From positions 620,001 through 684,000 of the forward strand of contig JAQOOI010000019.1 of assembly GCA_028554645.1 (NCBI GenBank): 64,000 bases of DNA, given 5' to 3'. The notes under the pieces are model-generated. The model had not been told where the DNA came from, made no database searches, and was given only the letters and a program-made list of their open reading frames with translations. This DNA comes from Omphalotus guepiniiformis (Eukaryota > Basidiomycota > Agaricomycetes > Agaricales > Omphalotaceae). Below, piece by piece: positions 45,101 through 62,952 of this stretch; position 1 is the first letter of the stretch, and each line of letters starts with the position of its first letter. The translations under genes and the position numbers were made by a program.

Positions 45101-48100
45101 CACATATCTCGACCCTGTTCGGTTTCAATGTGTGAGCAGTCTGAACTCCATCGCTATTGCCAGCGTCTGGAAGTGGCGGTGGTATTCTCCGGGATTGTAG
45201 TTCACGATCTCGTAGCATCTTCGTGTGCAAAGCCCATTGGTTACCGCTCATGGCAGGGACAGAAGGTAAGTCGAACATACCGTTCACGGGGGAGGCACAC
45301 TGTGACAACCAACCAATACTATGCAAAAGCCTGCGAACATCAGCCCTTTGATTCAGCATCTGTGCATACTTCGATCCAGAGCGGATGCCTGTTGCAGGGT
45401 CAAACAGAACGACTGTCTCTGCGTCAAGTGTCGCGTCGTCGACCGAGTCGTTGGCAACGAAATCATCATTTGACGCCTGAAGCACCTGTAGCATCTGTCC
45501 ATCCCAAGAGTCAACTAATGCGCTGGTCCCGGTGGCAGCTTTGAGCTGTGCACGGAAATCGTCTCTCGCATCCAGGCATTCATATCGAATATTGAAATAT
45601 TTCATGTAAAGCAAGTGCTCGGGGTGGAACGTATAACCTTGAAATGCCTGATGCCAAGTCTCCTGGGGGCCCTTTAGAGTTTCGCCTGTCCTCCATGGTC
45701 GAAACAGCGTCAACATAGCACAGCAGTAATATTCCCTGTCGCCAAGATCTGATCGAGGTAGAGAACCACCTAGGAAGTTGGGAACAGTGCGTTTCCAGTC
45801 TCTTCGTTCCGCAACACGATGCGTGCTGTACAGAGGGTGGTTGGTAGCGAATAAAGCACCGCGTTCGGAGTCACGGATACCACGGCCCGGGTTCTTACTC
45901 TGAGGGAGGTTTATATCCGAGTCTTTCCCATGTAGGCAAGCTCTATCAAGAAAGGTCTCCAACACCGAGTTTTCGTCTCCGTCGAGCGGAAGACTGGGGT
46001 ACGTGTCGTCCTCTTCATCATCAGTAAACGTGTGCTCAGTCTTAGTCGTTCCATTTCTCCGCTTTCCTCGCTTCTCGCGATAGAACCTTCGGACCCAATC
46101 ATATAGGGAGTAATGCTCATGATCAACAGGACGGCAGGTATAGTCGTACGCTGAAGAGAGGCCAATAAACTTTCCTTGCTGTTTCACCAATACAACCTTG
46201 TCTTCAGCCGCGTTCTCTTCTGGATACCAAAATCTGCGAGCTTCTCTCACAAATGATTTCCAGTAGAAAGGAACAAATTGATGGTCGGTGTAGTGGTCTG
46301 GTCGTTGCATAAGGTAGTGGGAAATCATGGGAGCACCAAGTTCAAGTTTCGTGGATAACAAATTCACGATTTTCGTCATTAGGCTTCTTGATTTCTCCGT
46401 AGCTTTGAAGGGACCGTCCAGGATCTCCGTGTTGTTCTCAAAGACGGACCGAATAACATCAAATACAACGTGAGTCTTCAACCCACATTTTGTAATATAA
46501 TCTGAGACATAGATCACAACAGCTTTGATTGCAGTCCCAGACAACAAGCACGTCACGTCTGTATTTGACCTAAAGAGATAACTCAACGGGGGACAAACGT
46601 CGTTCATCCACGGCTCCGTTTTCTTTAAGTGCACGATGCCACTATCTTGTTCCACATATGAACTGGGAACAATTGCGCGAGGAAAACGTGCCTTACATTT
46701 CTTCCACACATTGTTAAGGCAGGACGTCGCAAAATTTTTCTTATTCGGGGTTCCGTCCTTGTTGAGACCTCTGGTGCAGTCATGCAAGTTAGATTTCGAC
46801 AGTATATCATCGACGGTGAACGTATATTGCCTGCGCCAATCAGCGTATTCGGCACAACGCGAGCATCCTGGTACCGCGCACGAGCAAGAAGGCGGGGGTG
46901 GAATTGGGAGTGTTTCAATTGGGTTGCTGTATTCAGAGTGAGCGGAAGCCTCGTTCACATTTTCAAACACTTCTGACTTAGTGCCGTTTACAAATTCCCC
47001 GACTCGAACACTTTCGAGGTACGCTATCAACCGGCGCTTGAAGTCGGAGGCAGGATCAAGCAAGCGATCTCGTATCTCCTGCGGCGTGAGCGCACTCATG
47101 ATCCACAGCATCAGATGTAAATGCAAGGTAAGTCTCCCTTGCTGCTCGCCTGTTCCGTAAAAGGCAGATGTCTCACCGAACACACCAGGATGGTCCGAGT
47201 CGACACCAAGGATGTGTTTTATGAACATTGTCACCATAAGATGAAAGAAGGTGCTACCAGCGACTGGATTCGAAGCAAGGAGATGACGACGTGCATTCCA
47301 GTCAGGGATCTCTAGAGTAAACTTCTCCTTTGAGCCTGCGTAATACATACAAATTGGACTACTGACATCTGCGATTGCAAGTGTGATGTACCATGTGGGA
47401 GCACCCTTGTGTGCTATCAACGACCATATTTCATTCCTCATGTACTTCTTGCTTGTCATTGAGCCCGGAACTTTGCCTGCAACATGATCTAGGTCCTTCA
47501 TTAAATCGAAGCATGCCTGCTCAGAGTCAGAAGCAGGTTGTACATGTTCGCCATTACGCATACGAGTTGACAGGGCTTTGAGTGTGCCAATATCAAGGTT
47601 CATCATGCGTTCAGATATCTGAGTAAATTGTTTCTTCTCTGTCATAAGCCAGCCTTGTGTTGCGGCAGTTTTCATCTGCATGTGGCTAAACGCGACAAGC
47701 ATGAACGTAGGATCAGTCTGGAATCTTTTGTCGTGATAGTGAAGGAGGTAGCTCGCATGAGCTTCAAAACTAAGGCTCGTTGAGCCAAGTGAACCTACTC
47801 CATACGGAAAGAGCCAAGGGAACATACGAGCGTATAAACCAGGATTGTTCCATAAAGACGCCGGGGAGGAATTGTTGGAGACTCGCAGAAAAGCACCGCC
47901 AGTTTCAAGGTGCGCCATCGCCTGGCTTTTTAGTGCATCCACCGACATCGTTTCCAGGTCTTTTCCGACAAGGCCATGAACTATGATCGGACATTGGCCC
48001 TCTTCAGTGCCGTCTTCATCGCCTGCATCGAAAACGCTGACGCCTTCAGGCACCTTCGTGGTGTGTCCCTTGACATACTCGACAGCCACTGCCGGTATAT

Positions 48101-49712
48101 CCTGAGGGTATTCCAGAAGGTTTTCGGGAGAGTACCTCACGTCCTCGTATTCAGAGCTATTACAAATGAGCCACTGAAGAGCGTCAGATACCTCTCTGTG
48201 TCGAACAAGGAGTGGAGTCCTCTGATAATCTTTCAAGGTAGGTTTCGACGGTCCGCTGAACAGAACAGCGATAACGTCTTCCATGTCCTCTCGGGGAGGA
48301 GGTAACTGGTCGTAAATCTTCTGAATAGGTGTAGCATGGCAAATGACATTTGCGACCATCTTTTTCTGACCGTTCATGATCTTCACAAAATTTCGAGAGT
48401 GGTGTACTCTCGCAACTAGCAAGCGTTCAAAGTAGCGCAGTTTTGCAAGAACAGGGGGGACGGCACCTATCCACAGGCCATTTGCAAGACAGATTCGTGG
48501 GACCTGAACACGGCGAATGGATTCACGGCAAGTATCACAAATATATTTACATCCAGGTTCCAATACAGGGCCTTTCATCTCATGTACCGCCTGAGTAGGC
48601 GATGTTCTAGGCAGGCGAGTCACACCCGAGACCTCCAAGATATGAAGAGATCGTTTAACGTGTCTCAGGTTAGACAAGCGGACAAGTAAGGTGAGACGAC
48701 CGCACACGGCACATCCAGCCTCTTCGATTTTAGACGGGTGAAGATCAGTGCACCACCCTCGAATGATTTTATCCTCCAGCTCTTGAGACAGCGGCGGTGG
48801 AGGAAAAGGATCTGGATCGCGGTGGGTCGAGGGCAGAGAAGACTCGTTTTTCCCAGCACCTCCGTCAGAGTCTGAAGAGGTTGTTTTGTTGACCGTTTTA
48901 TTGTTTGCCTTCATCACCTTTGGCTTGCGCCCTCGTCTCGCACCACCGAGGACATCAAATACATGAAAGCAGCTAGTAGAGGACACAGGTGGTGGAAAGG
49001 AAAGTTCGTTAACTGTTTCGAGCTGGTAGACGGGAGTGGGAGCGTTGCCGCGGGGCCCGCCGCCTATCTGGACAGAAAGAGAGGTGGATGCAGGCGAGCA
49101 CCAGCATCGCAGACCTTCGTCAAAAAGAAGCTGATAACTTTGCATATCACAGCTAGCAGCTCGACCAGCAAGAGACGGCGCTGGTGGCATGGGAAACCCG
49201 ATGAAACACTCTGTCTCCAGAGAGTCATCGAACGACATGCGCGCATTACACCAAACAGCGGGGGTGTAAGGGCACTCAGACAGGCTTTGTTGGCGACGCA
49301 ACAAAATCTTTCGAACGCGCAAGTTCGTACAGTTAACGTACGAACGGCACAAAGACGACAAAGCAAATACAAAACCCATGTAGAATTCATGGGGGTGCAG
49401 CTCAGATAGACACAATATTTCACGGTAAACATGTATTGCGGTGCGACGAACAGGGCGAAGCTGAACGGAAAAGAACGAGTCGGCAGACACAGAGAACACG
49501 TTAATCGCAGACAACGCGTCAATCGCAGAGAACACATCCAGAGATGCAGGTAACAACACATTCGATGATGCGGAAGGTAACACTGCGTATAAATACAGCG
49601 CCGTATGTACAGAGTAGCATCCATGTGCAGAATTAACCACACAGAGGGCGTTCTCCAAAGACACATCTTCAACGGGGTGGGTGGGTCCCAGGTGAAGGAC
49701 GCGCGTGGGCAT
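42138..49712 (-). CDS. Helitron Rep/helicase with C-terminal cysteine-protease-like domain (2524 aa)
   Basis: One uninterrupted frame. Order of parts: a poorly conserved N-terminus; a Cys-rich DUF6570-like region from ~residue 340; the Helitron replication-initiator domain (~650-900) with the HUH-type HLHLML near residue 862; a PIF1-type superfamily 1 helicase with Walker A GGMGGTGKS (~1592), Walker B FLDEISM, GDFAQLPPV and the C-terminal THASQGQSL and YTALSRS motifs. After ~150 basic, disordered residues a C-terminal domain contains NSCAYDAFL (~2266) and GDYHYTARF plus HTWFYDG (~2471-2486), resembling the Cys and His boxes of ubiquitin-specific peptidases; CERCGERC forms a likely zinc site between them. 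HUH nickase plus helicase drive rolling-circle transposition. No stop or frameshift is present, so the element may be autonomous. Element termini were not found. Confidence 0.93.
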   Translation of the reverse strand: MPTRVLHLGPTHPVEDVSLENALCVVNSAHGCYSVHTALYLYAVLPSASSNVLLPASLDVFSAIDALSAINVFSVSADSFFSVQLRPVRRTAIHVYREILCLSELHPHEFYMGFVFALSSLCRSYVNCTNLRVRKILLRRQQSLSECPYTPAVWCNARMSFDDSLETECFIGFPMPPAPSLAGRAASCDMQSYQLLFDEGLRCWCSPASTSLSVQIGGGPRGNAPTPVYQLETVNELSFPPPVSSTSCFHVFDVLGGARRGRKPKVMKANNKTVNKTTSSDSDGGAGKNESSLPSTHRDPDPFPPPPLSQELEDKIIRGWCTDLHPSKIEEAGCAVCGRLTLLVRLSNLRHVKRSLHILEVSGVTRLPRTSPTQAVHEMKGPVLEPGCKYICDTCRESIRRVQVPRICLANGLWIGAVPPVLAKLRYFERLLVARVHHSRNFVKIMNGQKKMVANVICHATPIQKIYDQLPPPREDMEDVIAVLFSGPSKPTLKDYQRTPLLVRHREVSDALQWLICNSSEYEDVRYSPENLLEYPQDIPAVAVEYVKGHTTKVPEGVSVFDAGDEDGTEEGQCPIIVHGLVGKDLETMSVDALKSQAMAHLETGGAFLRVSNNSSPASLWNNPGLYARMFPWLFPYGVGSLGSTSLSFEAHASYLLHYHDKRFQTDPTFMLVAFSHMQMKTAATQGWLMTEKKQFTQISERMMNLDIGTLKALSTRMRNGEHVQPASDSEQACFDLMKDLDHVAGKVPGSMTSKKYMRNEIWSLIAHKGAPTWYITLAIADVSSPICMYYAGSKEKFTLEIPDWNARRHLLASNPVAGSTFFHLMVTMFIKHILGVDSDHPGVFGETSAFYGTGEQQGRLTLHLHLMLWIMSALTPQEIRDRLLDPASDFKRRLIAYLESVRVGEFVNGTKSEVFENVNEASAHSEYSNPIETLPIPPPPSCSCAVPGCSRCAEYADWRRQYTFTVDDILSKSNLHDCTRGLNKDGTPNKKNFATSCLNNVWKKCKARFPRAIVPSSYVEQDSGIVHLKKTEPWMNDVCPPLSYLFRSNTDVTCLLSGTAIKAVVIYVSDYITKCGLKTHVVFDVIRSVFENNTEILDGPFKATEKSRSLMTKIVNLLSTKLELGAPMISHYLMQRPDHYTDHQFVPFYWKSFVREARRFWYPEENAAEDKVVLVKQQGKFIGLSSAYDYTCRPVDHEHYSLYDWVRRFYREKRGKRRNGTTKTEHTFTDDEEDDTYPSLPLDGDENSVLETFLDRACLHGKDSDINLPQSKNPGRGIRDSERGALFATNHPLYSTHRVAERRDWKRTVPNFLGGSLPRSDLGDREYYCCAMLTLFRPWRTGETLKGPQETWHQAFQGYTFHPEHLLYMKYFNIRYECLDARDDFRAQLKAATGTSALVDSWDGQMLQVLQASNDDFVANDSVDDATLDAETVVLFDPATGIRSGSKYAQMLNQRADVRRLLHSIGWLSQCASPVNGMFDLPSVPAMSGNQWALHTKMLRDRELQSRRIPPPLPDAGNSDGVQTAHTLKPNRVEICDRSYFEKLGCEFADTGSLITSVVDSSTLNEEQERAFRIVANHSIGVSQQPLQMYIGGMGGTGKSRVLHALLDFFGRREQRHRIVIVAPTGNAAALLGGSTYHYLLGINARQEEATATTLNQVYTRLEGVDYLFLDEISMLSAVDMYKISEKLARVKGKPDVSFGGVNMIVAGDFAQLPPVIGGESSSLYGRKIGSIHTSLKNQQAAIEKSLWHHFTTVVILRQNMRLKSSTEKDLKLRKALDNMRYRACTPEDITFLETLVSSNQQGRNNIGDPCFRNAAIITAENLHKDEINEQGCLRFAQDTNQELVHFYCEDSVTDKDDLQSSGKRRKAAKYHFINEGLQQLLWSLPPAMHENHSPAKLSLCVGMPVIIRHNAATELSITKGQRGVVYGWSASVGHWGQQVLDVLFVSLTNPPSPVQFDGLPLNVVPLTRRKASGYVYLPDDTKLYISREQVDVLPGFSMTTHASQGQSLTPNAVDLNNCRTHQAFYTALSRSTSADATIILREFSSKNITGGASGALRREFRELELLDEINKLKYNGKLNSSVTGSRRKDLVTTFRAWKGSSYVPKDIHPAVRWSSRDPYLLDTEEDELWSIVDKKTFKRLKEVIDSARDGGTPGATAATAVHSGELPFGTAQYESEATCTDAAYKCNKRKAEDEGYEPPYAKKQKLASLYGLGGPRKPSSLSKTKGHVSSTRSNASRRRRTSNESTRTGTSAHSLPLALEWYRNSCAYDAFLCILHNVWKTDVVRWQSYFGEMGHTALETVAIGFGRISDNENTLKDVRENLRQELAQESPTIFGYGNLTSLTELLQRLLRSSKVIVRASITCPSLHLSTQPLPSATRDSCTAVLEHRAIDIPSTTAWVTELPPERTAWRCERCGERCQFSFAMVHVPELLVMNFDPVTNMCIDRVITTEIHGDEQIFFLYGVIYYGDYHYTARFITESRHTWFYDGLQNGGRPTFETWSDELDMTLCRGRRATAAIYVRTR

Positions 49713-50516
49713 GAACCTCGCAGTAACAGAGCCAGCACCTGGACAACAAACGTTATAATCACAAAAAGGAGAAGCCAGCGAAGACTCACCATGTGTAGAG
49801 CACGGTGTTTGTAGAACCCTGGCAAGGGTTTCAGGCTGGGAGATAGGGTGGTGGAAAGGTTTGTGAACTACAAGTGGAAGAGGTTAGAAGGAATGAATAT
49901 TGCACTGAGCGAGAACAAGGCGACGCACCTTTCAAGATCACTGTTTGACAAAAAACACACATCGAGGGGGCCACAGGAGGAGCGAGCAGGCAAAGGCGAG
50001 GTCAATGCAGGGCTTGCAGCAGCGAAAGGATAGGAAAAAAGCAAGGTAAGGCGTGCTTGCATATACAAAAGGGATAAGTGTTCGAGCGGCAAGAGATGCA
50101 TCAAGTTTCTCAAGGCTGTCGTCTGGAGTTCATCATCTGCTAACGGGGACCTGAGTCGCAGAGGATGGATCGAGTGACGGACTTCTGTTGACGCGAATGG
50201 TTCGATGTAAGGAAAGGTCGGACGGAAACAAACACGAAAACCATGCCAACTGCATTTGTACACGGATGTGAAATTTGCGAAATGAAGTATGTAGAGAGGA
50301 CTGGCGTAGGCGGATGTAACACAAAAGGACAGAGCTTGAAAGGTGGCAAGGTGAATGTATGCGCCTCTGCAAAGGAACGAGCAAAGAACGAAAACGAGAG
50401 GAAAAAACACGCGATGTATCGGAATCGGAGATTTATATAAGCACATATTTACGAGTACAGTGAACACGGAGGTAGATAGATGTATGTAGTAGTGCAGCAC
50501 AAGGGGGCATATGTAG
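49713..50516. other. Helitron 5' flank / 3' flank of the dioxygenase-like exon
   Basis: Long overlapping open frames (e.g. 49868-50575 minus) lack domain content and overlap one another; I treat them as chance. The 5' TC end of the Helitron should lie here or further upstream but could not be fixed. Confidence 0.4.
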
Positions 50517-50759
50517 TCAGGGTGCGTGTCGTTGAACTTCTTCAAGAGTTGAGAACATAGCCATGGCCCATTCACGTCGACTGGCCTTCCTTTCGAGAAC
50601 TTCTTTCATCTGGTCAACAGAGCCGTTCAGTTTGATGGAGCGGTCGGTTTTACCCCCGGCGTCCAACCAACGCCAAATACCGCCGGCTGTATACTGCGTG
50701 AAGGAATATCTAGTCTCGCCAGGCTGAACGGGGAGGTTAGAGTGACGAACAAGGGCAGA
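50517..50759 (-). pseudogene. C-terminal exon resembling a basidiomycete TET/JBP-type 2OG dioxygenase
   Basis: Eighty residues in frame to a stop at 50517, preceded by a good intron acceptor (CATAG, 50760). The peptide begins SALVRHSNLPVQPGETRYSF, continues with TQYTAGGIWRW and ends in a charged helix. RHSN-x(8)-RYSFTQY looks like the last strand pair of a double-stranded beta-helix with its His and Arg. TET/JBP dioxygenases are expanded in basidiomycetes together with KDZ transposons. No upstream exon is visible; the preceding 2 kb is an AT-rich repeat element. I infer a gene end cut off by insertions. Family assignment is from memory of motif style and is uncertain. Confidence 0.45.
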
Positions 50760-50904
50760 CTATGCTGTTTAAAAGTGTCAAAAAATAATTTCAGCACAAA
50801 CTTCTATAAACATCATATCTCTCTTAGTCTTAGCTGTATACAACCCCTTGATCACATAATAGCAGATGGTGCTCACAATATTGCAGTTGTTGCTCGCACT
50901 ATGG

Positions 50905-52834
50905 CAGATAGTGCTCGCGCTAGGACAGATAGTGCTCACACTATGGCAAGTAGCGCTCGCGCTGTAATAGCGAGTGTTCGCACTATGGCAGATAGTGCGT
51001 GCGCAATCTTATATTGCTGGAGAATAACTTCAGAAAGGTGACTATTAAGTAGTATTCTAATCAAAGCAAGCATTAAGCAAATGTGTACTAGTAACACCTT
51101 GTACAACTTGGCAAGATAGGATAATATTGAGATAAGTGTCAAAGCAAGTATTAAGCAAATGAGTATGGTCAACTATATAGTGCTAAGTAAGCACTTTGCA
51201 GTAAGAATAATGATCTGATTATAGAAGAACTTTGTCCTTGCATCAATATCATCAGTAAAACAAGCTCAATATTTTGAATCCATATAGTGCATGATTTGTG
51301 GACAAGATCAATTGACTTTCAAGCATGCATATAATGGACTTCTTGTGGCTGAAGTCCAATAGAATGTTAACTTTTTTTTGGCAATTTTTATATCATATTT
51401 TGGGCTCTGAATCAATTTGTGCAGAGATCAACCTGCCCAGGGAGTCTGACTTAGAGCATGAATCAAGAAAATCTGATGGTGGATACTAGCAATCTCAGAT
51501 GTGCAAACAAGATCATAATATTCCCAACTCTGACTTTGATAGCAAAACTGGTGTGTAGCATCTATAGTTAATTTCATATCATACCAATATGTCTGATTGT
51601 AGATTCAGCCCAATTTTCTGTCTAGATCTGAAAGTCAACTTGTTTGGCTAGTATGACTACACTCCATGATAGTATCAAAGATAAACTTGCAAATATCCAG
51701 AATGGAATCTCTTGAAAATCCTAAGTATTACTTAAGCCAACTCTAATGTCATTAATATCACTGATCAGGCATAGAGCATATTCAGACCAATGTAAGACCA
51801 GTGATATAACATTTAAATGATCTCATAGTAAATCATTAGTGTACAGAAAATTATTATTGGAGCTCGTTGGTTTCAATATACAGTGATTAGTACTTGCCAT
51901 TAGTACTTCAAGTTCAAGTACATTGAACGAGATAAAATTTCACCCTGCAGAAATCAAATTGACGGTTGCAGAGGATACTGACCACTTTCACTTTACACAG
52001 GCTGGCTGTAGAGATAAAACAGAGGGGCAATAATGAAAGGGAGAATAATAAGCTGGCACTGTTACTTTTGAGAATTCATCTTCACTTACAAGATGTATAA
52101 TCTATTATACAATCCATCATAATGAACATATTTCATGTGAATCTGTATTTTGTGATAATCATACTTTATGGTCTTACATTGGTTTGAATATGCTCTAATT
52201 CAATAATGAAATGGAATTGGATCATGCAACTAGTACTGGACTTGATTTATGGACAAAAGATAGAGTGTTTGTTTTGATTCATTTTAGTCTCTGCCTTCAT
52301 CTAGGATACTTAGGATATTCTTATAGCTCAACCCACTCATTTGCTTAATATGCTTTGATCTAGAATATCACATCTTAATAGTTGACCACACTTATAAGAG
52401 ATAATACTAGTTAGTATTATCTGTATATTGAGTTATAACTTATCTATCATCTGTGAGCACAACACAGATATATTAAGTCTACATATGCTATACAGATAGA
52501 TAAATTTAAGCTACTTTTATAGGACCAGAGCCCTGTGATGCTAATAAAGACCAACAAAGAGGTTATGTGGTCATATAAATGTGATAAGATAATTGAGATA
52601 AGCATCACTTATCTCAATATTATCTTATCTGGCTAAGTTGTATGAGGTGTTACACATTTGCTTAATGCTTGCTTTGGTCTAGAACACCACTTAATAGTCA
52701 CCTTTCTGAAGTTATTTTCCAGCAATATAAGATCGCGCACGCACTATCTGCCATAGTGTGAACACTAGCTATCATAGCACAAGCACTACTTGCCATTGTG
52801 TGAGCACTATCTGTCCTAGCGTGCACACTACCTG
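50905..52834. mobile_element. AT-rich non-coding element with ~230-bp imperfect inverted arms, truncated by the LTR
   Basis: 50905-51138 and 52604-52834 are inverted copies, roughly 85-90% identical by eye. Each carries subterminal repeats such as GCACTATGGCAGATAGTGC, followed by a shared stretch containing CTTATATTGCTGG and AAAGGTGACTATTAAGT. Weaker inverted similarity continues inward (51140-51180 against 52318-52365). The centre has no coding frame and few CpG. The right arm stops where the LTR begins (52835), so the retrotransposon inserted into this element. Confidence 0.7.
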
Positions 52835-52993
52835 TGTTAGGAGTCAGTACATACAGGTACAGAGCCACAGATCAATCAGCAAATAATGGCATACACAAGA
52901 AAGACAGAAAATTTTAAATTTTCTGGTATCAACCAAATGCCTACTTGTTAACCAATCACTCTGTGGTCATACATGATGCACTACATAATTGAT

Positions 52994-53270
52994 CTGAGTC
53001 ATGTACAGCCTCCCTTCAGTCCCATGATTTCTATATCCTCTTCAGCTTGCAGTTTGAGTCATAACCAGTCATGCTGCAGCATCCATTACACATGAGTCAT
53101 AACAAGTCATCCTGAAGTTCTTATGGAAGCTTGAGTCATATATAGTCACATTATAGACTCATAGTGACTTGAATCATGCCTAGTCAAAGTGACTCATGTT
53201 CAAGAGTCATGTCTAGTCAGAATGACTCATGCTCACAGTCATCTCTAGTCAAACTGACTCATGCAGCCTC
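52994..53270 (+). promoter_or_regulatory. Cluster of seven TGASTCA (Gcn4/AP-1-type) sites in LTR U3
   Basis: Perfect TGAGTCA or TGACTCA heptamers occur seven times in under 300 bp, with near matches such as AGACTCA and AGAGTCA between them, spaced ~30-45 bp. This is the binding site of Gcn4/AP-1 bZIP factors, which in fungi respond to amino-acid starvation or oxidative stress. Confidence 0.6.
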
Positions 53271-53311
53271 ATTGTAGATACTTTCCTTTTATATCTTTAC
53301 TCAGAATTGTG

Positions 53312-53355
53312 TATATAAACCCCACCCAACTTAGTGTACCTTAGTCTAGTTATTG
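53312..53355 (+). promoter_or_regulatory. LTR TATA box and inferred transcription start
   Basis: TATATAAA at 53312-53319. AGTCTAGTTATTG at 53343-53355, about 31 bp downstream, is the inferred RNA 5' end because its first 12 nt are the exact complement of the sequence following the LTR. Confidence 0.65.
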
Positions 53356-53422
53356 TTTTCTTGTGAACCTCTACTTTGTAACCTGTCTTGTCAATACAAG
53401 TACTTCTTACTCTCTCTAGTCT

Positions 53423-53776
53423 ACTGAAGCATTCCCAGTGACTGAACCTCTAAGGCATTGAAGCATTTCCAGTGTCTTTCCCTAAGTATTGCTGAAGCAT
53501 TTCCAGCAGTATTTCCTTTGATTATCTGAAGCATTTCCAGATATTCTCCAAGGCATTGAAGCATTTCCAGTGTCTTTTCTTAAGTATTGCTGAAGCATTT
53601 CCAGCAGTATTTCCCTTGATTGTCTGAAGCATTTCCAGGCTTTCTCTTTGAATAACTGAAGCATTTCCAGTTGTTCATTCCATCCTTAGACTACTTGAAG
53701 TATCTAGATTCCCTTGGTTACTAAAGCATTTCCAGTAATCAAATTTCCTGTTCTCACTTGAAGCATTTCCAAGTGA
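53423..53776 (+). repeat. Array of ten RNA-type hairpins with invariant AAGCATTTC loop
   Basis: Loops (9 nt) at 53427, 53461, 53495, 53529, 53559, 53593, 53627, 53659, 53724 and 53761. Stems of 4-9 bp differ between units but pair, e.g. TATTGCTG/CAGCAGTA, AATAACTG/CAGTTGTT, TCACTTG/CAAGTGA. Only the first loop has a base change (AAGCATTCC) and the ninth has an A-C closing mismatch. Units 2-4 and 5-7 are a 98-bp tandem duplication in which one stem pair changed from A-T (53524/53542) to G-C (53622/53640). The array lies in the transcribed leader (R/U5). Confidence 0.85.
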
Positions 53777-53960
53777 AACCTACCTTTCTAGTGATATCTG
53801 AGACATCACTCCTTACATTTCCTTTCTCTGTGATATAGATTATCACTTCAGCTCATCTCTACATTGTGTTCTTTGAGTAGATTCTCAATTAATACAACTT
53901 AGCCCCCAACCCCCATACTGTGGATCAGAGTAACTAACCCTTACCTTCTGTTCCCTAACA

Positions 53961-53973
53961 TAATAACTAGACT
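53961..53973 (+). promoter_or_regulatory. Self-complementary primer-binding site
   Basis: AATAACTAGACT (53962-53973), directly after the LTR, is the exact reverse complement of AGTCTAGTTATT (53343-53354) at the predicted RNA 5' end; T53961 can add a G-U pair. This is the Tf1-type self-priming layout, where the RNA 5' end folds back to prime minus-strand DNA. I looked for the common tRNA-iMet type site (TGGTATC) here and it is absent. Confidence 0.75.
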
Positions 53974-53993
53974 CCCACTAAGTTACAGTTGAG

Positions 53994-56900
53994 ATGTCTA
54001 CTCAAACAACCCACACTCAGACCAACCAACAACAGGCCACTTCTCCTAGACACTATGTCCTCACCCCAGACAGCACCAATCTCAGAAGATCTGTCTCTGA
54101 AGGACCAGTCAATAGGCAATCCCAGAGTTTTACTCCATTTGAAACTCCAGGACAAACCTTAGGGAGTACACCACAACAAATTCCACCAGGAGTAGCAGTT
54201 AGAAGACCAAGGAGAAGAAGAGACAGAACTACAGGTCTCACCTTCCAAGAACTCACTCCTATTTCCCCAGTCAGACCTAGATCCACTCTTCAGACTGAGA
54301 TACTGAGAGCTGAATTGTATGGAGAACAAGGCATGACTGAACTAGCATCTGGTCCCAATACCATTGATAATTTGCTGCAAGAACCCTATCAAGATCAGTC
54401 TCAATTCCCCAGTCAAGCAGCTATCAATGTTTCAAGCTCTTCTAGTCATGAAGCTGCTGGTGATACAGGAAACATAGCAGATGATGAAGATGAGCATGCA
54501 GACATGCCTGCATTACAGGCTGTTAGTGACTCTGAATCTGAGAACGAGGAGGAGGATGAGGAGCTTGAACCACCAACCATGCAACATCTTATTGCACACT
54601 CTACACCTAGAACTCAGCATTGGCAGGAAGCCAGTATGGACACAGGTTTTCAAAGCTATAGGGAAGGCTTAAGAAATGTGTTGGGAAGCATGTATTCCAA
54701 TTCCCATGCATCAACAACAAATGCCAGAAGTGTGCAACCACATCCCAGCTCACATGGTTCTCCTCCATCAGCAAATAATACTGTCCACTCTAACAGAAGT
54801 CAAAGACATAGTGTTAGAGAAAGTATAACTTCCCAGAGAGCTTCAACAGGATCTCACACTACCAATGACCATGAGCAGGAGCGTAGTGTATCAGCTACCC
54901 AATTAGCAGGACTGGCAATTGCAAGCAGAGCCTTTCTAATCAGCATTGGAGTAGAGGATGATCCTTTAAGAGGTGATTATGGGTGGATCCGTATGATGCG
55001 CAGGCTAGCTCAAACCAACCTATCTGACTTGGCAGAGCATATAGCAGAGGCTGTGCAAATTCCCTATAATGCAAGAGAACTCACAACTCTATATCACTTC
55101 TCAGAAAGACCCATGATACTCCATCTCTTGAATATGCAAGATCCATCCAGTAGAGCCTCATCTCCAAGGAGTAATACTCCTCACTCATCCAGAACAACCT
55201 TGCTTTCAGAGGCAAATGACCAACCACACTCAACATCTCCTAGATCCTATCAACAATATCCAGAAATGGACATTTTTCAGTGGACCCTAAACTCTGCTAA
55301 CATGAATGGTAACTGGCAGGTGGTGGATGATAGATCAGTAAGGAGTTCTCAAGCCAATCTACAAGGATATACTAGAGTACCAACACATACTCCAGTACAG
55401 TCACCCCAACATGCAGTAAATTGGCCTAGCACTATTGGCAGAGTACAACAAATCATCAATACTACTCCTTCAACTGTGAGGAGTACAGTACCCCAAGCAG
55501 TGCAAGGACGTATTGCAACTCCATGGCATCCTAGTACTCAACCAATCATGGTATCCTCAGGGTCAGACTCCACTACTGTAGTAGGAATACCCAATATTCC
55601 CCTCTACAGGAATACAGAGTACAATATCCCAGACCCTGTACCACCATATCCTGGAGAGCCACCAGCACCCACCTATGAACAGATTCCAGCTTCCAGAATA
55701 TCCAATCCTTCCTCAAACAGAGCATCCAATCATGTTGAAACTCAATCATCTAATGTTCTGGTCCAAGAACTCCTACAGGAAAATATCCAGAGTGTCAACT
55801 ACATAGATGATACAGAAGTTTTTGTTCATAGATCACAACAGGAAGATGTGGAAGCAAATGAGCCTGAAACTATCTCAAGACCCAACAGGGTACCTGGTTA
55901 TAGAAATGATGAGGTACCTACAGAGAGTTCAGTGCAGGAATCTAGTGGAGAACAGAGGAGAAACAGGACACAGACTTGGAGAGAAGAATTAGAATCCAGG
56001 ATCCAAAGAGGTCAAACCAGAATTGAGCCTCAACCCAATAATTCTCCCCCACATCACCAGGAAGAACCATCCAGACCTCAGGCCCCAGTACAGTTAGGTA
56101 CCTCCAATCAGCCCCATTCAATGCAGGTGCCTACAACTAGGAACAGGATACCCTCTGGTATGGAGAGAGATGCCCCACCACATTTGGATGGTAGAAGAGA
56201 GGATCAGAACACTTCCAGGCAGTACAGACAGAATGCAGCAGGACCTTCTAGAAACCAGGAGGTAAGTCACTCACCAGGATCATCTAGGATTTCAGAGTTA
56301 AGGAGAACCCAACAATATCCTTATACTCCCAACAAAGGCAAGACTCCTGTAAGAAATGCTGGAGGATCCCCAGATGACCCCAATGACCCTGGACACTCTC
56401 ACTATGATGAGGATGATTCTGATTCTGATGATGAACACAATCAATCATCCAGAGGGGAAGGACCTAGTCATTGGACAACACCAGGAGGGCCAGGAGGACC
56501 AGGAGGACCAGGTGGGCCCCAAGGACCAAATGGTCCCCCATCTGGAGATGAAAGTGATGATGGCTATAACCATAGAAGAAATGGTAGAAATGGAAGAGAT
56601 GGTAGAGATGGTAGAGATGGAAGAGATGGAAGAGATGAAAGAGATGGCCGCAATCAAGAAGATGCAGAAGATCGTCGACAAAGGGAAGAACTCACTCGTG
56701 CTCTCAATAGAGAAGCTAAGTTGGATATTAACAAACCCAAAGAATTCTCTGGAGAGAGTCGTGCTGAATGGTCTACCTTTGTTGACAGCTGTGAGAACAT
56801 GTTTGCTGCCAAACCCACCATCTATGCCTCTGAATCTTCTCAAATCACATTTGCCGCATCATATTTCACGGGTCCAGCTTTGCGTTATTACAACAACCTC

Positions 56901-57794
56901 ATGCGCAAACGACGAAATGGCAATATCATTGCAGCTTTGAACACATGGAATGAATTCTTGAAGATGTTCAGCAAGATGTTTGGGCTACATGATGAGACTT
57001 TATACTCTCAATCCAAACTGGATACTGTATATCAGAAGTTCAAAGAAGCATTTGCTGATTTCCTTGTACGCTTTGAGGATGTGGCCAATAAGACCAACTA
57101 CAATGACCCAGCTTTACGGTTCCGATTACTCCGCCAAATCCGCTCTGACCTCAGAAATCGACTCACCAACAATGGGAAAATTCCTGATTCTTATGATGAA
57201 GTTGTTGAAAGACTTTTGGAAATTGATACCGCTCGTGAAGCACTCAATGACATGGGTCTTGGAGACAACACTTATGGTCGCAACTGGAATAATCAACAAA
57301 CAGACACCAATCAGCGTGTAGTTCAAACACGTTTTGTGTCAAACAACACTTACCGACTTCGTAATGCTAACACTCCCAATGTGGTCAGTGGGAATGCTGC
57401 AGAAACAGGAGAAACACAACCCCAATCCAATTTTCCACCCCGTATTTCACAAGAAGAGTATGAACGACGGATGAGGGAAAGGTTGTGTATGCGCTGTGGC
57501 AAACCAGGTCATTTTGGTAGAGAGTGTAGGACTTATCCAATGCCAAACTCCAATCAGAACACAAACCGCAATGGATACAATGCAGGGTCTAACAATGCTG
57601 CTAATGGCAGAGCAGTGTTTGTAGACAATGAGGAAGAAGAAAGGGATGGGGTATATTTGGAAATTGAGGGAGAAGATGGTATTATTCAGATTGAAGACAG
57701 CATCTTCCAGGAGGGCGCAAAGGAAGAGGAATATGAAGATGTAGACAACTCGGGAAACTTGCAGGAGACTCAGGATGGCAGGAGTCACATTTGA
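53994..57794 (+). CDS. gag: Gag polyprotein of the Gypsy element (1266 aa)
   Basis: The first ~800 residues are Ser/Pro/Gln/Asn-rich and low complexity, including an acidic patch (~160-195), a collagen-like GGPGGPGG segment and RDG repeats (~835-895). The conserved retrotransposon gag domain follows (~905-1105; FSGESRAEW, TFVDSCENMFAAKP and a FADFLVRFEDVA helix). A CCHC zinc knuckle, C-MRC-GKPGHFGRE-C, is near residue 1164, and an acidic C-terminus ends at 57794. Gag is several times longer than usual because of the N-terminal extension. The start is 33 bp after the LTR. CpG is scarce up to ~56640 and common afterwards. Confidence 0.92.
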   Translation: MSTQTTHTQTNQQQATSPRHYVLTPDSTNLRRSVSEGPVNRQSQSFTPFETPGQTLGSTPQQIPPGVAVRRPRRRRDRTTGLTFQELTPISPVRPRSTLQTEILRAELYGEQGMTELASGPNTIDNLLQEPYQDQSQFPSQAAINVSSSSSHEAAGDTGNIADDEDEHADMPALQAVSDSESENEEEDEELEPPTMQHLIAHSTPRTQHWQEASMDTGFQSYREGLRNVLGSMYSNSHASTTNARSVQPHPSSHGSPPSANNTVHSNRSQRHSVRESITSQRASTGSHTTNDHEQERSVSATQLAGLAIASRAFLISIGVEDDPLRGDYGWIRMMRRLAQTNLSDLAEHIAEAVQIPYNARELTTLYHFSERPMILHLLNMQDPSSRASSPRSNTPHSSRTTLLSEANDQPHSTSPRSYQQYPEMDIFQWTLNSANMNGNWQVVDDRSVRSSQANLQGYTRVPTHTPVQSPQHAVNWPSTIGRVQQIINTTPSTVRSTVPQAVQGRIATPWHPSTQPIMVSSGSDSTTVVGIPNIPLYRNTEYNIPDPVPPYPGEPPAPTYEQIPASRISNPSSNRASNHVETQSSNVLVQELLQENIQSVNYIDDTEVFVHRSQQEDVEANEPETISRPNRVPGYRNDEVPTESSVQESSGEQRRNRTQTWREELESRIQRGQTRIEPQPNNSPPHHQEEPSRPQAPVQLGTSNQPHSMQVPTTRNRIPSGMERDAPPHLDGRREDQNTSRQYRQNAAGPSRNQEVSHSPGSSRISELRRTQQYPYTPNKGKTPVRNAGGSPDDPNDPGHSHYDEDDSDSDDEHNQSSRGEGPSHWTTPGGPGGPGGPGGPQGPNGPPSGDESDDGYNHRRNGRNGRDGRDGRDGRDGRDERDGRNQEDAEDRRQREELTRALNREAKLDINKPKEFSGESRAEWSTFVDSCENMFAAKPTIYASESSQITFAASYFTGPALRYYNNLMRKRRNGNIIAALNTWNEFLKMFSKMFGLHDETLYSQSKLDTVYQKFKEAFADFLVRFEDVANKTNYNDPALRFRLLRQIRSDLRNRLTNNGKIPDSYDEVVERLLEIDTAREALNDMGLGDNTYGRNWNNQQTDTNQRVVQTRFVSNNTYRLRNANTPNVVSGNAAETGETQPQSNFPPRISQEEYERRMRERLCMRCGKPGHFGRECRTYPMPNSNQNTNRNGYNAGSNNAANGRAVFVDNEEEERDGVYLEIEGEDGIIQIEDSIFQEGAKEEEYEDVDNSGNLQETQDGRSHI

Positions 57795-60700
57795 GTCCAG
57801 AAGAAACTGATTCCATATATTTAAATGGTGCAGTGGTTGAACCAGTCACCATAACTTCTAGATCAGAACAATCCTTCATTATTTCTGCAACAATTTTTAA
57901 TTCCAACTCTGTTAACTATCATTGCCTGCTGGATACAGGTGCCACTAGAGAATTCATTGATCCTAAATTAGCAAATCTCTATCCTGAAAAACTCAAACCT
58001 TTACCCCTTCCCATTCCATTAAGACTCTTTGATGGACAATACACATCTGCAGGGAAAATCACTCACAAATTCCTTGCACCAATCACATTCACTGATGGAA
58101 CAACCCATCACATAGACTTCTTGGTTACTCAACTTCATCCTGAAACCCCTATAGTACTAGGATTACCTTGGTTCAGGAAATACAATCCTCAAGTAAACTG
58201 GACTGAGTTGAAGTTCTCTTTCAATAATAGTGTACAGCTTATGGCTGCAGAAGTATATGATCTCACACAGATCACACACTACATTGTTAGACCTTCCATT
58301 AACAAGAAGCATGGAGTAACCATAGAAGATGAAGAGGAGGAAGATGAATTTGAAAAATCAGGACTAGGGCTGGAAGATCCAATCTTGATCCACATAGAAG
58401 AGATGGATAGGTACTCCCATGAACAGCCTCAGTCCACTTCCAAATTCAAATCTCCTGAACAACACCATCATTCCATCCCTAAAGTCAAACCTCCTATCCC
58501 TGATTCTCAAATGGAAGATACCATCCCACATATATCCTTATTAGGTGCAGCCTCCTTTGCTCAATTGGTGTTGGAAGGATGTGAAGCATCAATCCTATAC
58601 ATAATGCCCAGCACTGAAGAAGCAGAAGTAGAAGCAAGAATGGCCTCTTCCAATAATGAGAATTCAGAAACTCCAGATAAACCAAAACCCAACAAACTCT
58701 CTGAGCAGGAACTACTGGACAAATTTGTACCCAAACAGTATCACCAATATGCCAAAGCCTTCTCAGCTACAGAAGCTAAAGGGTTACCACAGCATAGACC
58801 CTATGATATTAGAATTGATACTGAAGAGGACAAACTTCCACCTTATGGAAAATTATACAATCTGTCAGAAAAAGAATTGAAGGTTTTGAAGGACTACATT
58901 GATGAGATGTTGGAAAAGGGATTTATTAGGCCATCTAGTTCACCAATTGGAGCTCCAGTCTTGTTTGCAAAAAAGAAAGATGGAAGCTTAAGATTGTGTG
59001 TGGATTATCGTGCCCTAAACAAGCTTACTAGAAAAAATCGCTATCCCCTACCACTTATAGGAAACCTCATTGATCAGTTAAGAAGGGCTAAGATCTACAG
59101 CAAACTGGATCTTCGTGCAGGCTACAACAACATAAGAGTTGCTGATGGACATGAATGGAAAACTGCATTCAGGACCAGATATGGTGCCTATGAGTATCTG
59201 GTCATGCCATTTGGACTCACCAATGCCCCTTCTGTCTTCCAACACTTCATAAATGACATATTCCGTGACATGGTGGATGTATCTGTCATAGTATACCTGG
59301 ATGATATTCTCATATTCTCAGACAATGAGCAACAACATCAAGAACATGTATCCAGAGTACTTCAAAGATTGGAAGAACATGATCTGCACATCAAACCAGA
59401 GAAATGTGAATTCCATACTGACTCTGTTGAGTATCTTGGTGTCATTGTCTCTCCAAAGGGTGTTACCATGGATCCTAAAAAGATAGAAGTTATTCAGAAA
59501 TGGGAAAGGCCCACTTCTGTAAAAGAGTTGCAATCATTCTTGGGATTTGCAAACTTCTATAGAAGATTCATTGATAACTATTCTGGAATAGTCAAACCTC
59601 TCACAAGGCTTACCAGTAAAGACAAACCTTGGATTTGGACAGAAGAATGCACCACAGTCTTTGAACTTCTAAAACAAGCATTTCAAGAAGCCCCTATACT
59701 TCAGCATTTTAATCCAGAATTACCTATCATTGTGGAAGCTGATGCATCTGACTATGCCATAGCATCCATTATATCCCAACAAAACAAGGAATCTGGAGAA
59801 ATACATCCCATAGCATTCTATGCAAGAAGTATGACTGGTGCTGAATTGAATTATGATATCTATGATAAAGAGCTATTAGCTATTGTAGAGTCATTCAAGC
59901 AGTGGCGTGCATACTTAGAAGGTTCCAAATACAGGATTGAGGTCTTTACTGATCACAATAACCTACAGTGGTTTACCACCACCAAGACTCTAAGTAGAAG
60001 ACAGGCAAGATGGTCAGAATTCCTATCAGGATTTGACTTTATCATCAACTACAGGCCAGGAAAATTAGGTGGCAAACCAGATGCACTCACAAGAAGGGCT
60101 GATGTCTATCCCAAGAAGGCAGCACAGGCAGCAGTCAATGAAGAGAATCACAAAGTGCTGTTAAGCCCGGAACGTCTTTCCACTTCTCTCATTATGAATG
60201 ATGAAGCAGACCTGGCACGCATTCGTGATGTAGAGAAGGATAGATACTGGAAAGAACACAAGGTTATTGCAGAATCAGAAGAACCTGGACCATTTACAAT
60301 GGAGAATGGACTTCTACTACGTGAAGGACTGGTATATGTACCAAACAATACTCCTTTACGACTTCGAATTCTCCAAGTCCATCATGACCATAAACTAATG
60401 GGACATCCAGGAATGAGAAAAACAGCACAAATGATTCAGCGCACCTACTTCTGGCCAGGGATGCAGAAAGATGTCAAGAAGTATGTGAGAAGTTGCCATG
60501 AATGTCTACGAGCCAAGAGTAGTAGACGAAAACCTTTTGGACTACTCAAACCATTGCCAATTGGTGAAAGACCATGGAGCTCTATATCAGTTGACCACAT
60601 TGGAGAATTACCAGAGTCAAATGGGTTCAATGCAATCATGGTTGTAGTTTGCCGGTTGACTAAACAAGCAATATTCATTGCATGTCATACCACTGACAAT

Positions 60701-61693
60701 GCCTCACAACTGGCCAAACTCTTCATTAAACATGTATTCTCCAAACATGGTCTCCCAGTGGATATAGTCTCTGACAGAGGGTCTACCTTTGTATCATCCT
60801 TCTGGAGTTCTCTGTGTGATGCACTAGATGTTAATACCAACTACTCTACTGCCTACCATCCTCAAACTGATGGACAAACAGAGAGAACAAATCAAACTCT
60901 GGAACAGTACCTTAGACTGTTTGTAAACTATGACCAGGATGATTGGGAAGAATGGTTACCACTTGCAGAATTCACATACAATAATTCTCCAAGTGATTCC
61001 ACTGGGGTAACACCATTCTTTGCAAACAAAGGCTTTCACCCCAGGTTGACAATCTCTCTAAAGGGACTTCCAAATCATCAGGCACATTTAAAGGCACAAG
61101 AACTTAAAGATGTACATGAGTATTTGAAGGGAGAGATTAAAAGAAGCAATGAATCAGCCAAGAAGTTCACCAATTCTAAACGAAGAAGTACACCTAGTGA
61201 TTGGAAGGAAGGAATGTATGTATGGCTAAATGCCAAAAACATCAAAACCAAACGTCCAGCAAAGAAGTTGGATTATAAACAGTTTGGACCTTTCAAAATC
61301 ACTAAGAAGATCTCTGACCATGCTTATCGTCTGGCTTTACCACGTAGCATGGAAACCCTCCACAATGTTTTCCATGTGGACCTGTTGACTGCAGATCCAC
61401 CAGAACACTTCCCACAACGCCGACAACCACCTCCCCCTCCAATTGAAGTTGATGATGAAGAGCACTATGAGGTTGAACAGATCTTGGATAATCGTAGAAG
61501 ATGGGGTAGAATGGAGTACCTTGTTCGCTGGAAAGGCTATGATCCAGAACATGACTCTTGGGAACCAATCAGAAATGTAGTAGGTTCACAAGAGTACATT
61601 GAACAATTTCATCAAGAGCATCCAGAAAAAGAGAAACTCCATGATCAGGAATTGGAGAAGGCAGTGGAGAAGGAAAGGAGTCACACTCAATAG
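57737..61693 (+). CDS. pol: Pol polyprotein: protease, RT, RNase H, integrase, chromodomain
   Basis: Expressed by -1 frameshifting from gag; the frame has no ATG before it overlaps gag. From position 57791 it encodes 1300 residues: aspartic protease LLDTGATREF (~residue 50); reverse transcriptase with LCVDYRALN, MPFGLTNAPS and the catalytic YLDDILIFS (~500); RNase H beginning VEADASDYAIA (~650) and FYARSMTGAE; integrase zinc site H-x-H...C-x-x-C (~865-905) and the D,D-35-E core with SVDHIGELP, VDIVSDRGST and HPQTDGQTERTN; and a chromodomain YEVEQILDNRR...YLVRWKGYDPEHDSWEP (~1225-1275) that usually directs integration to heterochromatin. No stop or missing catalytic residue is seen. Confidence 0.94.
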   Translation, partial: RCRQLGKLAGDSGWQESHLSPEETDSIYLNGAVVEPVTITSRSEQSFIISATIFNSNSVNYHCLLDTGATREFIDPKLANLYPEKLKPLPLPIPLRLFDGQYTSAGKITHKFLAPITFTDGTTHHIDFLVTQLHPETPIVLGLPWFRKYNPQVNWTELKFSFNNSVQLMAAEVYDLTQITHYIVRPSINKKHGVTIEDEEEEDEFEKSGLGLEDPILIHIEEMDRYSHEQPQSTSKFKSPEQHHHSIPKVKPPIPDSQMEDTIPHISLLGAASFAQLVLEGCEASILYIMPSTEEAEVEARMASSNNENSETPDKPKPNKLSEQELLDKFVPKQYHQYAKAFSATEAKGLPQHRPYDIRIDTEEDKLPPYGKLYNLSEKELKVLKDYIDEMLEKGFIRPSSSPIGAPVLFAKKKDGSLRLCVDYRALNKLTRKNRYPLPLIGNLIDQLRRAKIYSKLDLRAGYNNIRVADGHEWKTAFRTRYGAYEYLVMPFGLTNAPSVFQHFINDIFRDMVDVSVIVYLDDILIFSDNEQQHQEHVSRVLQRLEEHDLHIKPEKCEFHTDSVEYLGVIVSPKGVTMDPKKIEVIQKWERPTSVKELQSFLGFANFYRRFIDNYSGIVKPLTRLTSKDKPWIWTEECTTVFELLKQAFQEAPILQHFNPELPIIVEADASDYAIASIISQQNKESGEIHPIAFYARSMTGAELNYDIYDKELLAIVESFKQWRAYLEGSKYRIEVFTDHNNLQWFTTTKTLSRRQARWSEFLSGFDFIINYRPGKLGGKPDALTRRADVYPKKAAQAAVNEENHKVLLSPERLSTSLIMNDEADLARIRDVEKDRYWKEHKVIAESEEPGPFTMENGLLLREGLVYVPNNTPLRLRILQVHHDHKLMGHPGMRKTAQMIQRTYFWPGMQKDVKKYVRSCHECLRAKSSRRKPFGLLKPLPIGERPWSSISVDHIGELPESNGFNAIMVVVCRLTKQAIFIACHTTDNASQLAKLFIKHVFSKHGLPVDIVSDRGSTFVSSFWSSLCDALDVNTNYSTAYHPQTDGQTERTNQTLEQYLRLFVNYDQDDWEEWLPLAEFTYNNSPSDSTGVTPFFANKGFHPRLTISLKGLPNHQAHLKAQELKDVHEYLKGEIKRSNESAKKFTNSKRRSTPSDWKEGMYVWLNAKNIKTKRPAKKLDYKQFGPFKITKKISDHAYRLALPRSMETLHNVFHVDLLTADPPEHFPQRRQPPPPPIEVDDEEHYEVEQILDNRRRWGRMEYLVRWKGYDPEHDSWEPIRNVVGSQEYIEQFHQEHPEKEKLHDQELEKAVEKERSHTQ
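57752..57797 (+). promoter_or_regulatory. Programmed -1 ribosomal frameshift signal between gag and pol
   Basis: G-GGA-AAC (57752-57758) is a canonical X-XXY-YYZ heptamer lying in the gag frame. The pol frame opens at 57737, one base back, and gag stops at 57792-57794. Eight bases after the heptamer, GACTC (57767) can pair with GAGTC (57782); GACTCA can alternatively pair with TGAGTC (57792), allowing a hairpin or pseudoknot. Confidence 0.75.
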
Positions 61694-61802
61694 AAAGAAC
61701 AACCATCACTTGTTTAACATGACATATAAAATCAACTTTGTATTGTCATAAAAGAAAACTGTGGTTATTTCTATTGTACACTATTCCTGATCCCATTCCC
61801 TC
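61694..61802. other. Junction between pol and the antisense gene
   Basis: AT-rich 110 bp with no polypurine tract next to an LTR end and no TGTTAG start, as would be expected at an element's 3' boundary. Confidence 0.6.
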
Positions 61803-62952
61803 CTAATCCTCTTCAACTTCTCCTGGGTACACAAACTCTTCCTCACCATCTTCATCCTCATCATCCTCTCCAGTAAGATCAATGACAGTTGGAGAAAGAT
61901 CAGAAGTTTCCTGCAGGTTAATGTTAACAGGCTCAATACGAGGTTCTGCTACTGCCCATGCACTTGGATAAGTTACACGAGAGATGCTAGAAAGATAAGC
62001 CAAGGGGTCCTGGATACCAAGACGTTGAAAGTTCTGAGTGACTAACTCATCACGAGTGAGATGAGCTTGCGCAATGGTGTCAGCCATCTTATCAAAACAT
62101 TCAACAATCCAGTTCTCCAAGGTAGTCACCCTTAACATACCCTCTGACAGCAGTCGTTGAGCCTGGAACACGCCCTGGACAAAGGTCTGCAAGTCCTTGC
62201 GGAGCGCATCAAAGAAAGGGGTCGGATCAGCACGAAGCTCACGGTACACCATGTCCGCCAATATACGTTGAAAGAAGGTGCTTGCCTCAAACTCATGACG
62301 AAGACGGGCAATAAGAGCATCGCGTTCACGAAGTTCACGATTGCGCTTTGTCTGAGCTGAAACCACACAGTGGTAAGAATTCTTCATGCGTGTAAAGCGG
62401 CGGACCTGTTCTTGAAGATCGGAGGCCAAACGACACATGCGGGTATTAACCCCACGAGCATCCTTCAACTCATCCTGAACCCGAGAAAGGTCACTATGGA
62501 AGGGGTGTAGGTCAATACATAAGAAAGAATGAAAGGAGACACATGTTCGTACCTCTCAAGGGTCTTACGAGCAAGTTCCGAAGCTTCCTTCTCATCCTGC
62601 AACAGCTTAATCTGCACGCGGAGACCAGCGATCAACCTACAACATGATTGTCATTACCAACAAAGAACTTTGACAGGAGAGACTACTACTTACTGTCTAG
62701 TTTCCGCTTCTACGTCTGAAGCCTCTGCCAATTCTTCACTTGACGAACATTCTTGCTCCAGCTCCAAAATACGGCTGACAAAGTGTCAGAAATGTATAAC
62801 AAATGTAAGATTAAGATTACACACGCATCTACAAGTTCACGCAAAGTCAGAGCCGGCATGACTGGCACGTTCATCCAGCTCAGAGGTTCCGCGGTGATGT
62901 GAGGAAGAAACAGAGTGCTCGAAGCCGCGTTGTTGAAAGTCTCGAAGTTCAT
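61803..62952 (-). CDS. Coiled-coil protein, antisense to the Gypsy element (4 exons, 327 aa)
   Basis: Exons 62952-62825, 62774-62694, 62636-62553 and 62493-61803 join in phase to 327 residues starting MNFETFNNAASSTLFL. Residues ~25-175 form coiled coil with heptads of Leu, Glu, Arg and Lys. A basic patch (KNSYHCVVSAQTKRNRELR) follows, then a helical part with ADPTPFFDALRKDLQTFV, and an acidic C-terminus with VIDLTGEDDEDE, which resembles a SUMO-interacting motif. A TATA box (TATAAAA, 63022-63028 on the minus strand) lies ~75 bp upstream. I do not know its function. It converges on pol with a 110-bp gap and may be cargo of the retrotransposon or a host gene. Confidence 0.78.

Follow-up and report, generated by a model that had tools for sequence, protein, structure and literature searches.

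In the packaging hairpins of retroviruses and RNA phages, which come as one or a few, the sequence of the loop is read and the stem only needs to pair; the locus described here differs from them in bearing a uniform array of ten hairpins inside an LTR. Recognition of their own RNA by LTR retrotransposons is, to our knowledge, known for few elements. Tf1 and Tj1 have a self-priming arrangement, in which the primer-binding site (PBS) is matched by a complementary sequence at the RNA's own 5′ end (PMC4600332, partial text). The present element resembles the fission yeast Ty3/gypsy elements Tf1, Tf2 and Tj1 by an SH3_Tf2-1 match in pol and by a predicted RNA 5′ end complementary to a PBS lying just after the LTR. 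It differs from Tj1, for which the partial text of PMC4600332 mentions no multi-hairpin array with an invariant loop, and its primer and PBS are 619 nt apart. In Ty1, the packaging and dimerisation domain at the RNA 5′ end is described (PMC5454406, abstract) as a pseudoknot accompanied by two hairpins whose apices are complementary to each other, and these hairpins are needed for transposition. A structured RNA 5′ end is thus common to both LTR retrotransposons; unlike Ty1, our element has many identical loops and no complement of the loop motif of 9 nt or more. Drosophila gypsy carries 12 Su(Hw) sites in a 340-bp cluster of its 5′-untranslated region (PMC2374998, partial text), and the likeness lies in the number of repeated motifs, about a dozen, packed into some 340 bp of untranslated sequence on the 5′ side of a Ty3/gypsy element. 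However, in that same text the gypsy sites are sites on DNA, flanked by AT-rich sequence and built on a different core, whereas here the arms covary as stems. By title or abstract, no such array was found among the open-licence papers searched.

The window, that is the whole stretch of 64,000 nt that was analysed (C19:620001-684000, from a genome of 42.5 Mb in 80 contigs), contains the 5′ LTR of the element at 52835..53960 on the plus strand. This LTR (1126 bp, TGTTAGG...CCTAACA) was delimited by sequence comparison with the 3′ LTR, which lies beyond the window (L009:1223-2348) and is 100% identical to it. The LTRs have TG...CA ends and the element is bordered by a short target-site duplication, ACCTG, common to both flanks. 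The gag ORF (53994..57794, plus strand), whose start codon is the first ATG in the predicted transcript, matches PF03732, and its CCHC knuckle match is weak and under the cut-off. The pol ORF (57737..61693, plus strand) overlaps gag in a different frame and has domain matches to RT, RNase H, integrase, SH3_Tf2-1 and a chromodomain, together with a weak protease match. RT, RNase H and integrase followed by a chromodomain thus occur within a single pol, as expected of a chromovirus, and these pol domains and the LTRs place the element among the Ty3/gypsy chromoviruses. The first-pass annotation had assigned the hairpins to a retrotransposon leader, and this is borne out. The array lies inside the LTR, just after the TATA box. 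Since the LTRs are identical the insertion is recent, and that the element has been active of late is also suggested by its open ORFs and target-site duplication. Among the pol matches listed (at least 120), the closest are metagenome proteins (77%), and those with a named source include the mushroom fungi Lentinula edodes (73%), Termitomyces (67%) and Trametes cinnabarina (63%); the host is probably a mushroom-type fungus.

The surroundings of the element and its U3 deserve a few remarks. A U3 segment (52995..53261, plus strand) contains seven TGASTCA sites, partly in tandem, compared with 16 across the entire window; perhaps they form a bZIP (Gcn4/AP-1-like) enhancer upstream of the TATA box. 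The retrotransposon begins at 52835, directly after the right arm of a pair of 155-nt inverted repeats (50905-51059 and 52680-52834, 90% complementary). On the minus strand, positions 42138-49883 hold a 2581-aa open frame for a Helitron-type protein with DUF6570, Helitron_like_N and PIF1 helicase.

The predicted RNA 5′ end lies 31 nt downstream of a TATATAA (53312..53318, plus strand). The sequence at this end, the putative self-primer AGTCTAGTTATT (53343..53354), is the exact reverse complement of the PBS AATAACTAGACT (53962..53973), which starts at the second base after the LTR, so that, as in Tf1, the predicted RNA 5′ end is complementary to a PBS beyond the 5′ LTR, here over 12/12 nt. The self-primer stands unaltered near the array in 30 of the family's 33 LTR loci and carries one mismatch in L034 and L040, while L051 is devoid of it; the exact PBS is found in 14 loci, the remainder being mostly 3′ LTRs or truncated copies. 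In the 655-nt leader (53342 to 53996) the sole ATG is that of gag itself, at 53994, while a first-order Markov model predicts 8.4 on average and gave an equally poor leader in 1 of 1000 simulations. This property extends to the family: 34 R-U5 sequences were taken and merged into 25 distinct ones (those of L051, L022 and L021 being partial), and 23 of these 25 have no ATG, L052 and L015 having one each. Being free of ATGs, the leader is probably scanned and translated. A strong translational block by the array is unlikely, because no ATG precedes that of gag, as in a scanned leader.

The ten hairpins span 53418-53778 of the plus strand, within the LTR and hence also in the 3′ LTR, at about 75-435 nt from the predicted start (~53343), close to the 80-430 nt first estimated. 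All ten units were delimited from sequence and folding. Unit 1 (53418..53444) has a 5-bp stem, unit 2 (53452..53478) 9 bp, unit 3 (53484..53514) 11 bp and unit 4 (53520..53546) 6 bp, a mismatch and 2 bp. Units 5 (53550..53576, 9 bp) and 6 (53582..53612, 11 bp) are duplicates of units 2 and 3; unit 7 (53618..53644), with a 5-bp inner stem, is a diverged duplicate of unit 4. They are followed by unit 8 (53649..53677, 10 bp), unit 9 (53715..53741, a closing A.C mismatch, then 8 bp) and unit 10 (53752..53778, 7 bp). The loops start at 53427, 53461, 53495, 53529, 53559, 53593, 53627, 53659, 53724 and 53761, and read AAGCATTTC in 9/10 units and AAGCATTCC in unit 1; all ten hairpins and the single variant loop that had been announced were therefore located. 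AAGCATTTC occurs 10 times in the window for 0.72 expected, nine times in the array and once in pol (59676). The proposed 98-bp duplication of units 2-4 into 5-7 also stands (92% identity), and the A-T pair 53524/53542 of unit 4 is indeed matched by G-C at 53622/53640 in unit 7. The description of the stems as paired needs one correction, the closing A.C of unit 9, where 21 of the 25 distinct copies have G-C. The remnant of a further unit (53687..53707, plus strand) has kept its stem and lost 10 nt comprising the loop and a closing base; the loss is common to the window copy and its near twin L024, and group A relatives keep these nucleotides. Two more predicted hairpins, without the loop motif, follow the array at 53790-53810 and 53830-53846.

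Permutation of the arms, covariation and conservation all support the selection on base pairing that the first-pass annotation had put forward. When the eight unit types were compared, leaving out the duplicated units 5 and 6, the cognate arms paired at 64/72 positions, against a mean of 45.5 for permuted arms (P 6.5e-5, 200,000 permutations), and by RNAfold energy the cognate set was the best of all 40,320 re-pairings (-61.9 versus a mean of -24.0). This better fit of cognate arms is evidence of constraint, because independent drift after duplication should not give it. The covariation set comprised 16 units, eight from the window and eight from relatives, several of them mutually related; its covariation score of 0.721 compares with 0.228 in shuffled sets (reached by 0/500) and with at most 0.196 when the alignment was slid. 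In the same set, 87.5% of the cells were paired (63.1% when shuffled) and 40 cells had changed on both sides (13.9 when shuffled). Two-sided change touched 7/9 stem pairs, a figure by itself not unusual, as 184/500 shuffles equalled it.

Folding leads to the same structure. The unconstrained fold of the leader, both minimum-energy and centroid, contains all ten hairpins and a 14-bp duplex between the 5′ end and the PBS around them. The array folded alone gives z = -4.2 (100 shuffles). Most stem pairs have a predicted probability above 0.9; the closing pair stands at 0.73-0.78 in eight units, while it reaches 0.96 in unit 1 and drops to 0 in unit 9. We also scanned for non-overlapping hairpins having a common 6-nt loop word, which yields a score and not a count of these ten units: the window leader scores 10, L029 12 and L038 8, for a maximum of 3 in 207 control tiles of the window, reached by 15 of them. 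Searched against 168,441 bases (the window plus 21 other loci), a covariance model of the unit had no hit up to E = 1 besides the ten units, eight of these ten hits being its own training rows and the other two their duplicates. Rfam gave no match above the gathering score in 50000-64000, and a single sub-threshold one elsewhere (60699-60745).

The array is carried by the whole family, with 7-11 units in the 33 LTR loci: 10-11 in group A, 9 in groups B and C, and 7 in the broken copies L021 and L022. These counts use a two-mismatch criterion which excludes far-off loop words and skips the variant first loop in L027, L028 and L030. Between group A (L029) and group B (L038), identity reaches 133/139 (95.7%) in stems and 78/81 (96.3%) in loops, against 53/81 (65.4%) in linkers, 67/80 in the 5′ part and 156/178 in the U5 tail; gapped columns, which include the units absent from B, were left out (37 in stems, 18 in loops, 15 in linkers, 3 in the 5′ part, 4 in the tail). 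Group C (L052) is similar (130/139, 77/81 and 52/81 for stems, loops and linkers, respectively); in L035, apparently an A copy in decay, the three classes hardly differ (154/159, 85/90 and 85/92). The loops of unit 1 and of the last unit differ in B copies. Uncompensated stem changes in other copies, named at the outset as evidence against selection, are found in part: broken units occur in some copies, L021, L022, L032, L035, L042 and L049 among them, while the stems remain far better conserved than the linkers. In the seven orthologous units without indels (u5 and u8 left out), the changed positions comprise three that stayed paired, five that gained pairing, three that broke and two unpaired in both; none of the breaks is at stem positions 1-7 and all three are at positions 8-9, and 19% of pairs would survive random single changes. 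The claim of change on both sides with pairing kept thus holds among paralogous units, and orthologous stems are mostly unchanged between subfamilies: the orthologous comparison shows mainly conservation, the paralogous one covariation.

Taken together, we hold it as almost certain that the plus-strand RNA of this locus forms an array of conserved hairpins whose loop is nearly invariant. As to its role, we propose that the array is an element of the genomic or messenger RNA of a self-priming (Tf1-like) chromovirus, in which ten short, differing stems would each present the single-stranded 9-nt loop AAGCAUUUC. The stems would only have to pair, and the loop would be the part that is read. A sequence-specific RNA-binding partner may engage many loops together, making of the array a multivalent docking platform; the RNA, its 5′ end looped by the self-primer:PBS duplex, could then be selected and condensed into the particle by Gag, the candidate reader, and self-primed reverse transcription would start in that particle. 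Kissing of identical loops was discarded, the loop not being self-complementary in sequence, and the longest complement of the 13-mer in the element's own RNA is a single one of 8 nt, none reaching 9 nt. Gag is the first candidate because the array is in the 5′ region of the RNA, inside the self-priming duplex, and because a second family of the same genome has a different motif. That the element's Gag reads the loops is nevertheless a tentative proposal, to which we give slightly less than an even chance, and we are no more confident of the full scheme, from the RNA array and multivalent loop reading to Gag-led selection and condensation.

A host RNA-binding protein could read the loops instead and so act on the element RNA, in its export from the nucleus, its localisation, its stability or its translation. 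Any sequence-specific RNA-binding protein would be suited by one loop repeated on variable stems, and the leader is probably scanned and translated. On the other hand, 239 of the 252 TGAAGCATTTCCA sites of the genome are within the 33 loci of this LTR family (the reversed pattern gives 0) and the other 13 are outside the loci examined, so that no host gene was seen to use the motif. Moreover, two families of one host bear different loop motifs, as would rather be expected if each family had its own reader than if a single host factor served both. We consider a host reader unlikely, although it fares best among the alternatives.

The second family, X, has five hairpins that share TCGTCTGG on differing stems, after a TATA box and on the sense strand of integrase (L087:1720-1890, within C48:61199-61500; from folding and arm pairing). 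Its LTRs are about 13 kb apart and at least 40 copies are 99-100% identical. An Integrase_H2C2 match on the strand of the array was found inside 12 X intervals and none is listed in at least two others (C74, C53); no RVT_2 (copia) match was found inside the X intervals. These intervals were compared by eye, from the best 40 of 109 and 150 of 352 candidates scored. As the copies pair at about 13 kb with Integrase_H2C2 inside, X appears to be another gypsy family; the TCGTCTGG array had also been considered as the leader of RT family F5, and this was dropped in view of the same pairing. Among 120 pairings of the X arms, the cognate one ranks first on both strands, though its energies are weaker on the minus strand. 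The strict shared-loop scan scores 3, equal to the control maximum of 3, the segment folds with z of -0.46, and the diverged copy L088 keeps 3/5 motifs, with most stems in its fold and not all; X therefore supports a recurring design only moderately. Two F5-type RTs (C48, C8) also have X-like arrays at about 2.8 kb on their upstream side, and just within the apparent X LTR there is an antisense open frame of 175 aa (L087:3-527, minus strand), which continues past the edge of the locus.

A further possibility is compaction: by shortening a long leader, the hairpins would bring the RNA 5′ end within reach of the PBS and allow its cutting as self-primer. Self-priming of Tf1 reportedly needs a structure of the leader RNA, which counts for this explanation, as does the predicted fold, in which the 14-bp duplex closes around the hairpins. 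The array lies between primer and PBS, which are 619 nt apart here and closer in the other self-priming elements examined. In the same genome, the 10-nt self-primer AGTTTTAAAT of family F2 (61% RT identity), as judged by eye and folding, precedes its complement by about 253 nt, and family F6 (52% RT identity) has a 13-nt self-primer 164 nt from its complement; seven self-priming loci from bacterial records have distances of 114-164 nt. However, compaction does not require an invariant loop, yet the loops are conserved like the stems, and we regard this explanation as improbable. The leaders of F2 and F6 contain no invariant-loop array (shared-loop scores of 2 and 1), and none was found in those of the seven outside loci, all shorter than the window leader. 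The array is therefore not a general need of packaging.

These seven loci belong to a set of 31 (L089-L119) with a related eukaryotic-type RT inside genome records of bacteria; this placement suggests contamination, and a single Trichormus MAG accounts for 11 of the loci. Eight of the 31 gave TATA-linked self-primer candidates, reduced to seven by removal of the low-complexity L107. No tile of the 31 loci exceeded 4 in the shared-loop scan, many of these contigs possibly missing the leader; the score of 4 was reached in L092, L107, L114 and L115, and in L092 the word responsible is absent from the leader. In viral contigs, the RT searches found no relative, and the single match to a pattern of two adjacent units (L085) was rejected as an unrelated contig with collagen-like repeats.

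Could the array act as DNA? A set of protein-binding sites, insulator or enhancer, would recall the Su(Hw) sites of Drosophila gypsy, since number, length and place are similar to those of the 12-site, 340-bp cluster reported in the partial text of PMC2374998. But a duplex needs no arm complementarity covarying among units, and the Su(Hw) core TGCATA is missing from the repeated motif, whose core is GAAGCATTTCC. Furthermore, the plus strand of the leader folds better relative to its shuffles (z = -3.92) than the minus strand (z = -1.78, 20 shuffles each). RNA thus fits better than cDNA, which narrows the earlier formulation of RNA or single-stranded DNA. Wobbles inside the stems (6 G.U versus 1 A.C in nine unit types; 21 versus 11 in non-cognate pairings) are only suggestive in favour of RNA. 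We find a DNA function highly improbable. A last alternative, in which tandem duplication is neutral and template switching (quasipalindrome correction) keeps the arms complementary, would account for the unit number varying from 7 to 11, the duplicated 98-bp block and the loop lost by a 10-nt deletion, but it is disfavoured and the least probable of all, as linkers fall to 65% while stems and loops of the same units stay at about 96%, correction would yield perfect Watson-Crick arms whereas 6 internal G.U persist, and the near-invariant loops are left unexplained.

The proposal of Gag as reader can be taken further. Families coexisting in one genome may each carry a private loop 'barcode', present on many hairpins of the leader and read by their own Gag, so that their own RNA is packaged and not that of rivals; duplication of units would make the arrays longer or shorter over time, and nothing but the pairing of the stems and the sequence of the loop would be kept. 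We regard this extension, in all its parts, as possible though doubtful. In elements with identical LTRs, a repeated near-invariant loop on freely varying stems makes a probable recognition element visible from the sequence. The partner can thus be sought with a bait RNA of defined sequence, the units make up a natural set of covariation data, and it can be asked whether different loop codes are used by families living in one genome.
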